From Lacrimispora sphenoides (lineage in GTDB: Bacteria; Bacillota; Clostridia; Lachnospirales; Lachnospiraceae): a DNA stretch of 64,000 nucleotides. A program made the translations under genes and the position numbers. Positions 55-46,575 of the stretch are shown piece by piece (positions within the stretch are counted from its first letter, which is position 1; each line of letters begins with the position of its first letter). A model generated the notes under the pieces. The model worked only from the letters and a program-made list of their open reading frames with translations, did no database searches and was not told the DNA's origin. Location: assembly GCF_900105215.1 (NCBI RefSeq), contig NZ_FOIP01000001.1:3288501-3352500 (forward strand). The letters are read 5' to 3'.

Positions 55-219
55 TTATGATGGCGCAATGATGGATAAATGAATTACTGTAGCAGGTAAA
101 GGGGCGGTGGTTACGATGCCTTTATGCGACCAGGTATCGTCAAGTCTGATATAGCTAGTAAGTTTGGCAAGGTTCGTTGTAATTAAATACTACAAGTGTA
201 ATATTAACAATAATATAAA

Positions 220-375
220 AAGATACTAACTATAATTTATATACTAACTTACTATAATATACTTAGTATCATATCAACCCTAACATCTTTGTTTCATGGT
301 ATATAAACAATACTAACTGCATAAAAGATAGTAAGTGTAAAAAAGATAATAACTATATAAAATATACTTAGTATA
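220..375. repeat. Iteron-like cluster of ATACTAACT and ATACTTAGTAT
   Basis: ATACTAACT occurs at 223-231, 241-249 and 310-318, with a variant ATAATAACT at 346-354 and ATAGTAAGT near 329. The 11-base palindrome ATACTTAGTAT occurs at 259-269 and again at 364-374. Such clustering in 150 bases with no coding frame suggests repeated protein-binding sites, for example an operator, replication origin or partition site. No function can be assigned from sequence alone. Confidence 0.5.
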
Positions 376-790
376 AAAAAGATACCATTGTGTCATATCA
401 AGGTTTCTTAGAATTTACATGATTATACCTTATTCATTTTACCACTCGGCCATCATATTATCATACACTCCACAACACATTTAAACGCTTAATTTCTCAT
501 CGTAATCGCATACCCTTACACTTTATCATTCATGCCATTACAAGCTGTATATGAGCCAAATAACAACACGTACAATCAATGCAACACCATCATATCCCAT
601 CAATAATTAATCTATATCAATCAGTCATATTCCGACACATTCCATCATACCATATCAATATCAGCGACATGATATCCAATAGTAACCAAAAAATATACAG
701 TTTATTCCATATTTCTTACTTGACAAAGTCGAACATACATACTATTATTGAACTCACAGACAAAGAACATACGTACTAGTGTTATGGCTT
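376..790. other. G-poor stretch without a convincing gene
   Basis: The plus strand is markedly poor in G over about 400 bases. Short open frames exist at 579-779 and 779-1000 but have no ribosome site, and the second is antisense to a better gene. The minus strand has no frame of useful length. I see no recognisable RNA gene; the skew may mark transcription of a non-coding leader or a degenerated region. Confidence 0.4.
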
Positions 791-1114
791 TTACATAATT
801 ACGTCATCGTCATCAAGATTAAGAAAGTCTTTTACTATGCCATCAATATCTTTGTTGCTGTTATCATGTGGTACATCAATCATATGATCCGTGTCTTTGT
901 TTCGCTCTCTAATAACAAGGTCACATTTATAGTTGATTGCAGCACAAAGCAATTGTACATCGGTTACAGTAAGTTCTTTCTTCTTAAATACATTTTGTAG
1001 TTGTTGGGGGCTTATTCCCATCATTCTAGCTACATGAGCGTTACTAATGCCATTTGTTAATAGGTACATGCGATAATCAATTATGAATTGTCCACTACTT
1101 ATAAATTGCAACAT
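791..1114 (-). CDS. Small helix-turn-helix (XRE-like) regulator
   Basis: The protein has 107 residues. The start at 1114 is chosen because a good AGGAGG-like site (GGAGGT) lies 7 bases before that ATG; a longer frame to 1171 has no such site. Residues about 18-65 carry a helix-turn-helix of the Cro/C1 type (ISNAHVARMMGISPQQLQNV), so it probably binds DNA as a local repressor. The C-terminal 40 residues are acidic and end in DDDD. It is transcribed against the main phage direction, as is usual for a lysogeny-phase regulator. The iteron cluster at 220-375 lies downstream of it and could be a target, but that is a guess. Confidence 0.7.
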   Translation of the reverse strand: MLQFISSGQFIIDYRMYLLTNGISNAHVARMMGISPQQLQNVFKKKELTVTDVQLLCAAINYKCDLVIRERNKDTDHMIDVPHDNSNKDIDGIVKDFLNLDDDDVIM

Positions 1115-1253
1115 ACTTTTACCTCCGTTATAGCGGTATATTATTATATCAAATTTATTTATATTTATCATTATATATGTTTACCTAAAATAATGCAAAC
1201 TTTTGTACAATGCCACGACATAAAATTATTTAATAAAAATGTAAATAAAACTA

Positions 1254-1282: not shown

Positions 1283-1333
1283 TGTATCAAGTTAAGAGAA
1301 ATAAGAGAAATAATGAAAGCGAGATAATCACCT

Positions 1334-1498
1334 ATGAAACATATTATCACATACTACAAAAACGAAAAGGCAGTTAAAACTTTAAATTATGAATGCAATC
1401 CAAACGCCACAAAATCTGAGATTAGCAGCAAATGTCTTCAGTTTGCAAAACAGAATAAGCCAGCAAATTATGATTATTACGAGATAGCACAAGTCTAA
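1334..1498 (+). CDS. Small protein, 54 residues, unknown
   Basis: ATG at 1334 to TAA at 1496. It begins MKHIITYYKNEKAVK and ends DYYEIAQV. The ribosome site is weak, but the frame follows directly on the promoter at 1254-1282. It is the first gene of a short leader transcript; no family is recognised. Confidence 0.5.
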   Translation: MKHIITYYKNEKAVKTLNYECNPNATKSEISSKCLQFAKQNKPANYDYYEIAQV

Positions 1499-1646
1499 AC
1501 GACAAGCGTTCCGTCGGGTGCAATTCCTGACTAGGCTCTCAACAAGTGATGATACTTGTTTCCATCAGTGGCACATTGATAATTTAATAGACTTTACACT
1601 ATCGCATATGATATAATAGGACTATATCAGAAAAGGATGTGATAGC
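1499..1646 (+). ncRNA. Structured intergenic stretch with AACAAGT/ACTTGTT hairpin, and a promoter
   Basis: AACAAGT (1541-1547) pairs with ACTTGTT (1554-1560) around the loop GATGAT. A near copy of this hairpin lies at 2223-2240. An extended -10 element (TGATATAAT, TATAAT at 1612-1617) without a clear -35 box follows and would drive the toxin-antitoxin pair. Whether the hairpin is a terminator, a leader or part of a small RNA cannot be told. Confidence 0.4.
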
Positions 1647-1865
1647 ATGAGTAACAAAGAACGCATTATGCAGTTAATAGATGGTGTACCAGACAGCAAA
1701 CTTGTATTTGTGGTTGACATGCTGGAATCACTAAAAGCATATGCAGGGGAATCCATAGAACCTGATAGCTGGGATTTACAAATGATTAAACAGGCAGAAT
1801 TATTAAACGATGGCGAAACAGTAACGTTTGATGATTTATGCAACGAATTAGGCATTAATCTATGA
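1647..1865 (+). CDS. Antitoxin of a RelE/ParE-type toxin-antitoxin pair
   Basis: The protein has 72 residues (MSNKERIMQLIDGVPDSK at the N terminus, FDDLCNELGINL at the end). The size, acidic character and a C-terminal segment resembling other type II antitoxins, together with a 4-base overlap with the RelE-like gene behind it, give the assignment. In this family the N-terminal part binds the operator and the C-terminal tail neutralises the toxin. The ribosome site is GGATGTG before ATG 1647. Confidence 0.75.
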   Translation: MSNKERIMQLIDGVPDSKLVFVVDMLESLKAYAGESIEPDSWDLQMIKQAELLNDGETVTFDDLCNELGINL

Positions 1866-2116
1866 GTGGTTACAAGACTATTTTTGAGAAAGCAGCTATA
1901 AAGTTTCTAAAAAAACAAACCCCTAAAATGCAAAGTATGATTCTGATGGCAATTTCAAAATTACCTGAAGGTACAGATATTAAGAAGTTGCAAGGTTATG
2001 AATTATATCGTATGCGTGTTGGAAATGTAAGAGTGATTTATTCAATTGATAATGACGTAAAAATCATTAACATAGAAAACATTGACAACCGAGGACAAAT
2101 ATACAAAAGATATTAA
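1862..2116 (+). CDS. RelE/ParE superfamily toxin
   Basis: The protein has 84 residues with the pattern of the family: an N-terminal helix rich in lysine (FEKAAIKFLKKQ), then LQGYELYRMRVGNVRVIYSID, then a final IENIDNRGQIYKRY. In RelE-type toxins the conserved arginines and the terminal tyrosine or histidine act in ribosome-dependent mRNA cleavage; here R and the C-terminal KRY are present. The start overlaps the antitoxin stop (ATGA), which indicates translational coupling. It may stabilise the prophage or act in exclusion of other phages; that part is inference. Confidence 0.85.
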   Translation: MSGYKTIFEKAAIKFLKKQTPKMQSMILMAISKLPEGTDIKKLQGYELYRMRVGNVRVIYSIDNDVKIINIENIDNRGQIYKRY

Positions 2117-2124
2117 AATCCAAA

Positions 2125-2169
2125 GGGTGTAAAGTCTGTTAGATTATCAACGGCTTTGCACTCTTTTTC
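2125..2169 (+). terminator. Intrinsic terminator of the toxin-antitoxin operon
   Basis: GGGTGTAAAGTC (2125-2136) pairs along all 12 positions, including three G-U pairs, with GGCTTTGCACTC (2152-2163) and is followed by TTTTTCTT. Confidence 0.85.
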
Positions 2170-2466
2170 TTATGAAGTCTATCAGGGCGAGCCTGTAGCG
2201 TCAAAGCAAATAGACGGTTTAACAAGTGGATGATCACTTGCACCAAAATGGACGGAATAACCAAAAAGAGCCTGACTACTCGCAATAGTCAGACCCTTGG
2301 GGAACACACTTGAAAATGTGATCACGTTACTAGTTTCATATCATATCACATTTCTATGATTTATTCAAGTGTTAATTCCAAACGTGCAAACTGTACCTTG
2401 AAAAGTGAATAGAAATGTATTAGATCAATTATTTTCATTTAATATATTCTGTTGGATTTACCATGA
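2170..2466 (+). ncRNA. Candidate small structured RNA with three consecutive hairpins
   Basis: No open frame is present. Hairpins are visible at 2177-2215 (GTCTAT/ATAGAC), 2223-2240 (CAAGTG-gatgat-CACTTG) and 2272-2292 (CTGACTA-ctcgca-TAGTCAG). The middle hairpin repeats the one at 1541-1560 with the same loop. A weak promoter (TTGGAT 2452, TACAAT 2473, spacer 15) at the end serves the next gene. Confidence 0.4.
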
Positions 2467-2505
2467 ATGTGGTACAATGTTACTGAAATGACAGGAGGTG
2501 TTAAA

Positions 2506-2766
2506 ATGATAACATACTATAAATTACTTGATATGCTCAACCGACAAGGAATGACAAGGGAACAGCTTAAAAATGCCGCTGGTTTATCTTCGGCGACTAT
2601 GACAAAAATATCTAAGCAAGAGTCGGTTACACTAAAAACTATCGATTCTATTTGTAGAGTAATGAAATGTCAGCCAGGAGATATATTGCAGTACAATGAT
2701 ATGACCTATGATGATTATGCTATATTGCAAAAAGAAAAACAACTAAAAAATAGAGAAAATCTTTAG
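2506..2766 (+). CDS. Cro/C1-type helix-turn-helix protein
   Basis: The protein has 86 residues. ATG 2506 is chosen because CAGGAGGTG lies 6 bases ahead; an in-frame TTG/ATG further upstream has no site. Residues about 1-65 form an XRE domain (KLLDMLNRQGMTREQLKNAA, GLSSATMTKISKQESVTLKTI, then VMKCQPGDIL), typical of small phage and conjugative-element regulators of the YozG type. It sits alone between the toxin-antitoxin operon and the promoter of the large RNA region and could regulate either. Confidence 0.85.
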   Translation: MITYYKLLDMLNRQGMTREQLKNAAGLSSATMTKISKQESVTLKTIDSICRVMKCQPGDILQYNDMTYDDYAILQKEKQLKNRENL

Positions 2767-2773
2767 AAAACAG

Positions 2774-2802
2774 TTGACATTGATTTGAAATCATGATATA
2801 CT
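2774..2802 (+). promoter_or_regulatory. Strong promoter facing the large RNA region
   Basis: Consensus TTGACA at 2774-2779, 17-base spacer, TATACT at 2797-2802. No gene follows for more than 1 kb, so the transcript must be non-coding. Confidence 0.85.
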
Positions 2803-2808
2803 TGTATT

Positions 2809-3835
2809 ATCAAAAGGAAATAGAAAAGGCGGTCACAGACACCGACCAAAGTATCAGACCACCTTTTCACACAACTTGATATACAAGCGTATAATCATTC
2901 TAATACATTTTTATTCGCTTTTCAAGTGCAATCGCACACAAATTTCCTTTAAGTAATATCTTTTCCAGTCGTGGAACTGGCCACAAAATGAACGGATCAC
3001 GCAACAGAGACTGAAACGTCCACGGAGCTTGTGATGGACAGGCCGTAAGGCTATAGCGAACCCTGACAACGCACATATGTAATAACGGTTTTATCTGGAG
3101 CAATTGGAGTAGTGTAACCATGTTATAGGTGAATCAATTAAGGAGAAAATACTTTTATCCGAAATTGTTACCTTGACAATAGTTGCATGAGGGCAAAGGG
3201 ATATGAGGACAGATAAATAATTCCTGAAAAATATGAAACTGCGCAATAGGTGTACCCTAACTATACGGTTTCTACCCTAGCTAACTAGTGAATGATGTCA
3301 CATGGGAGAAACAAGCAGACCTGTGAGAAGGTGGTCATTGACGGGAGCGAATAAAGCGAATAACCCCACAGAGGAATCATAAGGGAGCATACACCACTTA
3401 ATTATATTACTTCCAGATAAAGAGACTGGACAAGCAGAGGACGGAACAACGAGCCTATGAAGCAGTAGGCAACCAAAGAGAACGGAAAGCAAAATCCTAT
3501 TTGTTATAGGTAATTCAAATTAGTACGGAATAACGCAATTAAGATTTATTTGTAGCCATTAAAACATCATTCAGGCATCACAATGACAAGCCCTGAAATA
3601 TCGTTGATATGGCTATTTTGTTATAGGTTTTATCAGTTACACCACGCACGTAAACTAGGCACTATATATCGGTTCTTGGATTGTATACTCCTCAATCCTT
3701 ATTACTGATTGCGTGTAGTCAAATATATTCAGAACGTATGAAATCAAGTTGAATATTGGAAGCTCTTGACAACTACCCATCACGGGAGGCTCTGCTAGAC
3801 AATCTTTCATTGATTGACTTTTCTTATTTTGAAAT
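2809..3835 (+). ncRNA. Large structured non-coding RNA of about 1 kb (candidate ornate phage RNA)
   Basis: The stretch has a near-consensus promoter at its head, no frame with a ribosome site on either strand, and dense potential helices. Examples are GAAAAGGCGGTC 2823-2834 with GACCACCTTTTC 2857-2868, ACTTGA/TCAAGT 2874 and 2922 enclosing AAGCG/CGCTT, GTCCA/TGGAC 3018 and 3035, GCC-GTAA-GGC 3042-3051 (a GNRA tetraloop), CCTAT-ATAGG 3496-3510, CACGC/GCGTG 3653 and 3711 enclosing GGATTG/CAATCC 3678 and 3693, and CAATC-GATTG 3800-3816 followed by a U-rich tail that looks like a terminator. TGTTATAGGT is present three times (3121, 3502, 3619). Size, phage location and loop types recall the GOLLD and ROOL families of large RNAs, but I cannot confirm membership without a covariance search. 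Function unknown. Confidence 0.7.
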
Positions 3836-3886
3836 CATTGGCTTTTGTGTGCGTTAGTATCTGATAAAAAACAGGAGGAAAAGGAA

Positions 3887-4114
3887 ATGGAATATTACAA
3901 TAGCTTGGTTGATCGTATGGTAAGGGAAGCTAGAAGGTTATTGAGTAATAAGGGGTTAAGTTCAGAAAATGAGGTTATGACGATCTTAAAAGCGGCGCAG
4001 ATTATTATTGTAACAAATGAAGTATTTGAAACATCTTTCTTTGATGAAAAAGACGATATCATAGACGATATTTCCATTCTATATAAAGAACGATTAAATG
4101 AAGCCTTTGTATAA
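3887..4114 (+). CDS. Small hypothetical protein, 75 residues
   Basis: ATG 3887 follows CAGGAGGAAAAGG, which fixes the start. The sequence (MEYYNSLVDRMVREARRLL at the N terminus) is helical and charged, with an acidic run DEKDDIIDDI. It is the first gene of the long early operon downstream of the large RNA. No family recognised. Confidence 0.7.
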   Translation: MEYYNSLVDRMVREARRLLSNKGLSSENEVMTILKAAQIIIVTNEVFETSFFDEKDDIIDDISILYKERLNEAFV

Positions 4115-4223
4115 AACAAAATTTAGTATCTATTATGCAGATGATTATATGTATATTCTTACATTGTATCGCCTGTATAAGTACTTACTAAAGTGAGTAA
4201 TATTGCAGAAAGGAAATAAACAT

Positions 4224-5120
4224 ATGAAGGAAAATGAATTATTAGAAAGCAAGGAATTACGGGAAAAATTAGTTGCTAAAGTGGAAATTTTGGATAAGGT
4301 CAAAAAGTTGCTCCTTATTCCTGGCACTGAATTAGCAAATGCGCAGCAAGTAGCGGATTTTTACGAGGTAGAGAAGAATACCATTGAAGTCCTTTATTCA
4401 CGTAACAAAGATGAACTGGACGAAGACGGAACAGGACTTGTAAGTTATAAAGATTTTCTAAACTTACAAAATGTCAGTTTAGAGAAAAGCAGAGGTAAGA
4501 CAACATTCACATTCCAAAGTGGTGAAATTCTTAATGTTCCAAACAGGGGATTAAAAGTTTTCCCTCGTCGTGCAATTCTCCGCATAGGAATGCTACTTAG
4601 AGATTCAGCCATAGCGAAGGAGATCCGCACTCAATTACTTAATATAGAAGAAAAGACTTCTAATGAAACAAAAACAATGGACATCACAGAGGAACAGACT
4701 CTTGCCTTATCCGTCGGCATGGCATACGCAAGTGGAAACCCTGATGCAATCATGATAGCTACCACTAAAATGATGGACTTTAAAAACCGTCACATAGCAA
4801 AACTGAACGAGTCAAACAATGCTCTGGCAAACGGTATCCTAGCGTGGGACGATAGGGGACGAATTAATTTTGCAGTCCGTAAGATGGCAGCATACGCACA
4901 TATCACAGTAGGTAAAGCCTGGAGCGAGTTGTACAAGCAATTAAAGAACGGCTTTCATATTGATTTACAGAGCAGAGGAAAACAGCCATGGATACAACAC
5001 GTAGATGAAAAAGAATGGCAATGCGTGATTAAAGCATTTTCTGCCTTATGCAAGTATTATGAATTGGAACCTAGCGACATGTTTCATGACTTAAAAATTG
5101 AAGAAGAGGTTAAAGCATAA
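4224..5120 (+). CDS. Phage regulatory protein with antirepressor-like architecture
   Basis: The protein has 298 residues; ATG 4224 follows GAAAGGAAA. Residues about 30-65 (ANAQQVADFYEVEKNTIEVL) look like a helix-turn-helix, residues about 100-150 contain VFPRRAILRIGMLLRDS and EIRTQLLNIEE, and residues about 205-285 form a C-terminal domain with AWDDRGRINFAVRKMAAY. This order resembles the BRO/KilA-N and ORF6N/ORF6C antirepressors of temperate phages, which counter CI-type repressors. The exact family is not certain. Its place at the head of the early operon fits a regulatory role. Confidence 0.6.
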   Translation: MKENELLESKELREKLVAKVEILDKVKKLLLIPGTELANAQQVADFYEVEKNTIEVLYSRNKDELDEDGTGLVSYKDFLNLQNVSLEKSRGKTTFTFQSGEILNVPNRGLKVFPRRAILRIGMLLRDSAIAKEIRTQLLNIEEKTSNETKTMDITEEQTLALSVGMAYASGNPDAIMIATTKMMDFKNRHIAKLNESNNALANGILAWDDRGRINFAVRKMAAYAHITVGKAWSELYKQLKNGFHIDLQSRGKQPWIQHVDEKEWQCVIKAFSALCKYYELEPSDMFHDLKIEEEVKA

Positions 5121-5197
5121 GCCGAGGATTTGTAACCGTAAAAAGTTGCAGATCCATTTTTAGTTAGGAAAGAATATCTAGGAAAGAAGGTGTAATT

Positions 5198-5446
5198 TTG
5201 AAAGTAAACATATACACAATAGGCAAGAAAACGTTAATCGGAACTTACAATGTAAAATACGTTTATGATTCAAGTTTTTATTTTAGAGGTATGCCTACAT
5301 TGTCAGCAAAAAGGTGTAGAGAAATACTAAACATCGTATCGCCAAATTTCAAAATCGAATCGGAAACTTTGGTTATTGAAAACGTAGAAACAGGACATAC
5401 CGGAATACAAAAGATACACAGAGGCGGTACTATTTTAAACTTTTAA
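5198..5446 (+). CDS. Hypothetical protein, 82 residues, TTG start
   Basis: TTG 5198 is preceded by AAAGAAGGTG at a good distance. The sequence begins MKVNIYTIGKKTLIG and is beta-rich. No relative recognised. Part of the early operon. Confidence 0.65.
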   Translation: MKVNIYTIGKKTLIGTYNVKYVYDSSFYFRGMPTLSAKRCREILNIVSPNFKIESETLVIENVETGHTGIQKIHRGGTILNF

Positions 5447-46550: not shown

Positions 46551-46575
46551 GAAAGCGCATTAAGTTGTACTTTCT

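Follow-up and report, generated by a model that had tools for sequence, protein, structure and literature searches.

The window analyzed here is a stretch of 64,000 nucleotides, positions 3,288,501 to 3,352,500 of contig 1 in the 5.93-Mb genome of Lacrimispora sphenoides. The DNA around the RNA described below is also carried in IMG/VR, within a 116-kb viral contig (L025). The locus comprises, in order, an 86-amino-acid (aa) HTH_26 gene, a promoter, ~1.06 kb without a credible gene, a 75-aa open reading frame (ORF), a short hairpin, the gene for a 298-aa protein, and a terminator-like site. Its features, in window coordinates, are as follows (G022a is one of the homologous loci, and R1 is a model built from relatives).

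2506 to 2766, + strand: 86-aa Cro/C1-type HTH protein (Pfam HTH_26, E 6e-16), whose gene ends 7 bases 5' of the RNA promoter
2774 to 2802, + strand: sigma-70-type promoter with an extended -10 (promoter scan; same place in homologues)
2809 to 3867, + strand: predicted large structured noncoding RNA of about 1059 nt (homologues, covariation, and lengths; the promoter sets the presumed start and the closing helix the end)
2823 to 2868, + strand: 5' hairpin with arms GAAAAGGCGGTC/GACCACCTTTTC and loop CGACCAAAG (inverted repeat; the arms differ yet pair in relatives)
2891 to 2926, + strand: segment with an inverted copy at 2397 to 2432, 5' of the HTH gene (86% identity, opposite strand)
2963 to 3070, + strand: conserved 5'-middle block with a CCAG/CTGG hairpin, a GAACGG motif, and a GTAA hairpin (alignment; 75% identical to G022a over 108 bp)
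3401 to 3534, + strand: conserved core with hairpins CCAG/CTGG, GCCTA/TAGGC, and CCTAT/ATAGG and with ACGGAA between and after them (4-sequence alignment; 78% identical to G022a over 135 bp)
3628 to 3869, + strand: 3' domain with a two-part closing helix, arms 3628 to 3654 and 3844 to 3869 (MFE fold, covariation including the window, inverted repeat)
3887 to 4114, + strand: 75-aa ORF with a ribosome site, directly 3' of the RNA (ORF list)
4120 to 4194, + strand: second, smaller version of the closing-helix hairpin, immediately 5' of the 298-aa gene (found by model R1 with 42.9 bits and E 9.6e-6, the model itself being built without the window)
4224 to 5120, + strand: 298-aa protein, antirepressor-like by place only (no match in the Pfam search)
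5126 to 5155, + strand: first + strand terminator-like site after the promoter (scan; alone not above chance)

The promoter (TTGACA-17-TATACT) agrees with the consensus at 11 of 12 positions, and TG precedes its second hexamer. A single site alone is weak evidence, as the scan returned 61 sites in 10 kb versus 42.4 expected; the consensus promoter claimed by the initial annotation is conserved among the homologous loci. The claimed gene-free stretch of ~1 kb also held: no credible gene was found from 2809 to 3867, and the longest listed ORFs (of at least 30 aa) inside it have 41 aa on the + strand and 73 aa on the - strand, and a TTG start at 3845 would extend the next ORF. Searches of Pfam, PHROG, and NCBIfam with the 75-aa ORF gave zero matches. 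The inverted repeat listed above flanks the HTH gene, and similar repeats occur in L003/G020, L028, and L029. At 1647 to 2116, the window holds two short genes resembling a toxin-antitoxin pair, the second of which matches Pfam ParE_toxin (E 2.6e-5).

The DNA of 145 related genomes was searched (E up to 0.01), and 15 of them, including the source genome itself, had matches. Long matches were found only in G022 (two places, G022a and G022b) and G020, and the others were 23 to 47 bases. Pattern and protein searches of IMG/VR and GTDB contigs added L026, L028, L030, L054, and L055; the L028 RNA is 99.6% identical to the window RNA. G020 and L030 were aligned by motif because their divergence is so strong that BLAST finds only pieces. 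No place in annotated phages and plasmids covered 80% of the query. Three stretches matched the pattern GAACGGNANNNCAAANTCCTAT, of which L026 is a true member and two (L039 and L040) lie inside a coding gene and were rejected. Relatives of the 298-aa gene are present in L031, L032, L059, and L061 to L063, where the large RNA was unmatched beyond short pieces. Leader hairpins resembling the one at the 5' end of the RNA are found at places that lack the large RNA: before a 298-aa-type gene in L031 and L032 (with the CGACCAAAG loop) and after a small HTH gene in L041 (G334).

The clostridial prophage loci share a common order: a small HTH gene, a promoter, and a noncoding RNA of 0.67 to 1.19 kb, followed in most cases by a ribosome site and a gene that differs between loci. 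Measured from the inferred +1 position to the end of the closing helix, the RNAs would be 1059 nt long in the window, 693 in L026, 816 and 827 in G022, 667 in G020, 868 in L054, 834 in L055, and 1192 in L075; the lengths for L030 (1167) and L082 (1497) rest on less certain promoters, and L070 and L072 showed no promoter pattern within the DNA examined. At 8 of 10 loci (the window, L026, G022a, G022b, G020, L054, L055, and L075, but not L030 or L082), a small HTH-like gene, in most relatives named by eye or by PHROG, has its end near the promoter, anywhere from 30 bases 5' of it to 11 bases inside it. The downstream genes comprise the 75-aa ORF in the window, the 298-aa family, a P22_AR_N/ORF6C protein in G022b (Pfam antirepressor), a toxin-antitoxin-like pair recognized by eye in L055, and other ORFs in L070, L072, L075, L081, and L082.

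Comparison of the window with L028 showed 98 to 100% identity per 150-base bin over the block from 2251 to 3750, which includes the HTH gene and almost the entire RNA, versus 51 to 95% in the flanking bins of 451 to 2100 and 3901 to 5400. Such a near-identical block between diverged flanks suggests that the HTH gene and the RNA travel as one unit. Over 2251 to 3860, the comparison looks like a cassette exchange between prophages with widely differing flanks.

The middle of the RNA aligns poorly across members; the covarying helices belong to the 3' domain. In the RNAalifold consensus of eight members including the window, 10 of the 24 closing-helix pairs are changed on both sides; 92.2% of the cells in this alignment pair (31 to 55% when slid), and among 500 shuffles, 2 reach 10 both-side pairs and 10 reach the number of pair types. 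The closing helix is also present in the single-sequence MFE folds of all eight. A 10-sequence alignment that leaves out the window, L026, and L030 has 42 supported pairs in six helices, with 94.0% of cells paired versus 33.3 to 43.5% when slid; 21 of the 42 pairs are changed on both sides, compared with 9.4 +/- 1.9 in shuffles, none of 500 of which reaches 21, bearing in mind that shuffles ignore relatedness and that slid controls keep it but favor a structure derived from the same alignment. The compensatory changes that the initial annotation had proposed to look for in homologous regions were thus found both with the window (10 of 24) and without it (21 of 42), and homology and covariation together support its central claim, a promoter of its own in front of a large structured noncoding RNA.

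Model R1, built from the 10 sequences, found L026 (E 1.8e-5) and L030 (E 0.016), and the main 3' domain of the window, which has long inserts, went unreported. Carriers were few, 2 of 145 and 1 of 397 genomes, under stricter filters that missed the known G016. Short hairpins consisting of the closing helix without the surrounding large RNA were seen at 4120 to 4194 of the window, at 2362 to 2420 of L069, and in L094. The L094 hairpin (G258; 1501 to 1631, R1 E 3.4e-4) has a different inner sequence and lies 3' of a gene judged by eye to be of the antirepressor type. Two further candidates (L092 and L093) had no R1 hit and by eye look like chance matches.

Taken by itself, the full-length RNA of the window shows no unusual stability. 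Against 40 dinucleotide shuffles each, the whole-RNA z scores were -7.21 (L054), -6.85 (G020), -3.13 (G022a), -2.10 (L026), -1.32 (window), and -0.67 (L075); the controls gave -1.10 for the opposite strand of the window RNA, +0.51 for the 298-aa gene, and -1.97 for window positions 151 to 1150. The 3' domain of the window alone had a z score of -2.34. The evidence for structure is comparative.

Two smaller elements noted by the initial annotation were also recovered. The motif TGTTATAGGT does occur three times in the RNA (3121, 3502, and 3619); only the copy at 3502 is kept in all four window-type sequences, and L026 keeps part of the third. The reported GNRA tetraloop corresponds to a GTAA hairpin at 3041 to 3052, with GTAA-loop hairpins also in G020 and L082 and GAAA in L030, but TCAC in G022. 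A 5' hairpin with differing arms stands at the equivalent place in seven of the eight folded loci, and L054 forms another. In the core hairpins of the window type (four sequences), one compensatory change stands out clearly, in L026, from CCTA/TAGG to CCTG/CAGG (GCCTG/CAGGC).

Near the top of the 3' domain, G020, G022, L054, and L055 share an apical motif, AACCACNGC(N)AAACRGGACATA. This 22-base motif, AACCACNGC(N)AAACRGGACAUA, is near-invariant in most members and diverged in the window, where the exact form, AACCACNGCN(1,2)AAACRGGACATA, is replaced by CAACTACCCATCACGGGAGGC; the source genome has no exact match. On this motif the window is an outlying member, as it carries a diverged form. Exact matches were found in 2 of 25 genomes of the genus and in 0 of 391 of the class. 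A motif scan of viral contigs returned 18 stretches: four (L066, L071, L079, and L080) lie within frames of 455 to 474 aa and were dropped as coding, two (L073 and L074) are further copies of the L054 and L055 RNAs, and 12 are new. No long frame runs over the motif in the relatives that were kept (longest, 136 aa stop to stop).

The same 3' domain is formed by five of the 12 new stretches (L070, L072, L075, L081, and L082). Five others (L065, L067, L069, L076, and L077), here called subgroup II, have the motif inside another folded domain. Model R1 hits them at the motif with E values of 0.044 to 0.6, and because these hits are weak, we grade their kinship with the RNA family, which rests on the shared motif, as likely; they were left out of the covariation counts, as were the uncertain L068 (E 0.00038) and L078 (E 0.02). 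In L076, 465 bases separate the motif from the next + strand ORF of at least 55 aa, so the motif need not directly precede an ORF.

In most loci seen, the RNA lies directly 5' of a ribosome site and a gene, a feature that the initial annotation does not mention. A pattern search gave 11 distinct closing helices, and the sequence that comes within tens of bases of them mostly has a ribosome site. The terminator that the initial annotation had assigned to the RNA was not recovered: a scan of the + strand from 2774 to 3900 found none, at a low power (5 sites found versus 4.6 expected), and the next + strand site lies past the 298-aa gene, at 5126 to 5155. Because most of these helices end close to a ribosome site, and because in the window the scan placed no terminator between the helix and the next gene, the RNA probably forms the 5' portion of an operon transcript.

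This arrangement is what would be expected of a cis-acting leader, a giant 5' untranslated region controlling translation of, or elongation into, the next early gene, and the small helix copy directly 5' of the 298-aa gene at 4224 fits such a role as well. We give the leader a considerable chance, short of even. Against it, the downstream gene differs from member to member, the HTH-RNA block moves without it, and the subgroup II motif of L076 is far from the next ORF. Moreover, pairing of the RNA with the downstream ribosome-site region is inconsistent: in eight members, z ranges from -1.92 to +0.52 with differing RNA positions (the start-codon anchor being 1 to 2 bases off in the window and L030). 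Because the downstream gene varies while the HTH gene is steady (8 of 10), the HTH gene and the RNA seem to move as a unit, and the ribosome-site pairing is not consistent, we prefer a trans-acting structural RNA to a leader, with modest confidence.

Antisense control of a phage antirepressor, as exerted by the c4 RNA of P1, would suit an RNA flanked by a C1/Cro-like gene and an antirepressor-like one, with a Pfam antirepressor in G022b. Rfam holds a C4 family, and no C4 row appeared in the scans of the window and its relatives. The c4 RNA of phages P1 and P7 resembles the present RNA in its part in phage immunity control and in its adjoining antirepressor-type gene; PMC12197685 describes it as a 77-nt RNA that pairs with the ant mRNA around the ribosome binding site, whereas the RNA here, at about 1059 nt, is >10 times larger and has no consistent antisense match to a ribosome site in the eight members. 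Antisense control is therefore very improbable.

The RNA might instead be a divergent GOLLD or ROOL, being likewise large, structured, and prophage borne. However, Rfam 15 scans of the window and 19 relative loci found no family at the RNA (whole window at gathering thresholds, window 2700 to 3900 at E 10, 3 loci at E 1, and 16 loci at E 0.1). Below-gathering minus-strand rows for ctRNA_pT181 (22.3 bits) and GcvB (21.5 bits) were taken as chance, as were two + strand snoRNA rows (17.7 and 15.5 bits). The GOLLD model (RF02032) matched 0 of 18 records and, likewise, nothing in 14 control genomes. The ROOL model (RF03087) matched 1 of 18, the contig of L076 at 66314 to 66928 (E 5e-68), outside the L076 stretch bearing our RNA, so that ROOL and the new RNA coexist there. 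Membership in either family, one option of the initial annotation, is thus very improbable, and the data (no Rfam match, homology, and covariation) favor its other option, a new class. A decayed gene or nonfunctional spacer with a few regulatory hairpins, for which the weak stability of the window copy and the poorly aligned middle might speak, is scarcely credible, as homologues keep their helices through compensatory changes, which already contradicts it for the 3' domain, and long frames are absent from the window stretch and from over the motif of the relatives.

Several other elements were seen in these scans and contigs. The 131-kb phage contig of L076 (G854) holds ROOL (L091) plus the subgroup II relative. 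The same phages carry skipping-rope RNAs (in L022 and L023) and twister ribozymes (in L026, L053, L055, and L082 and, below gathering, in L067). Two group-II-D1D4-1 (RF01998) matches lie in the host genome (G000; C1:1998831-1998909 and C2:1238872-1238950). The - strand of L022 encodes at 1283 to 3868 an 861-aa phage protein of PHROG 8308 (unknown function), without a Pfam match, which has a DEDGD stretch that we take to resemble RNA polymerase motifs. A literature search returned no title or abstract on the RNA; preprints as such and supplements were outside its scope, and a prior description is possible.

On balance, with slightly better than even confidence, we favor a new family of large (about 0.67- to 1.19-kb) structured RNAs of clostridial prophages that are freed at or near the closing helix and act in trans. 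We infer their transcription, processing, and trans action as follows. The strong promoter at the end of the small Cro/C1-type HTH gene would transcribe the RNA, which would thus open an operon of the early or immunity region. The RNA has the 5' hairpin, a variable modular middle, and the 3' domain, whose long two-part closing helix stops a short distance 5' of the next gene's ribosome site. It could be cut free at or near this helix, for example by RNase III, and the freed RNA might then be abundant and play a structural role in trans, as ROOL and GOLLD are supposed to do; the apical motif would be its contact surface. Some observations run against the trans-acting family: the helix is mostly followed by a ribosome site, as expected of a leader; the window and L075 copies are not unusually stable, whereas those of G020 and L054 are; L030 lacks an HTH gene at its promoter; R1 misses the main 3' domain of the window; hairpins of the helix alone exist; and carriers are few.

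Few large structured phage RNAs are known, and one more family suggests that the RNA catalogue still lacks some of kilobase size. The location in an apparent lysogeny-control region, tied to a small regulator gene, provides a testable handle, and the conservation of the apical motif hints that a specific partner binds it. GOLLD forms a homo-14-mer nanocage and ROOL a homo-octameric one. Tentatively, the present RNAs may be a third class beside these two: a large, possibly self-assembling phage RNA from the immunity region, part of a mobile HTH-plus-RNA cassette, whose 22-base surface, near-invariant in most members, would bind a conserved host partner. It differs from both in having no match to their models. 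It also lacks the adjoining tRNA array of GOLLD, which is often near tRNA islands, and, unlike ROOL, does not lie near tRNA genes in the window, where the only tRNAs are at 46575 and 61541. According to PMC12286853, neither GOLLD nor ROOL has yet been assigned a function; our RNA resembles ROOL as characterized there, in being large, highly structured, and located in prophages or phages, and it resembles GOLLD, many examples of which are >800 nt by the same account, in its prophage setting and in a 3' part that is conserved and a 5' part that is less so.
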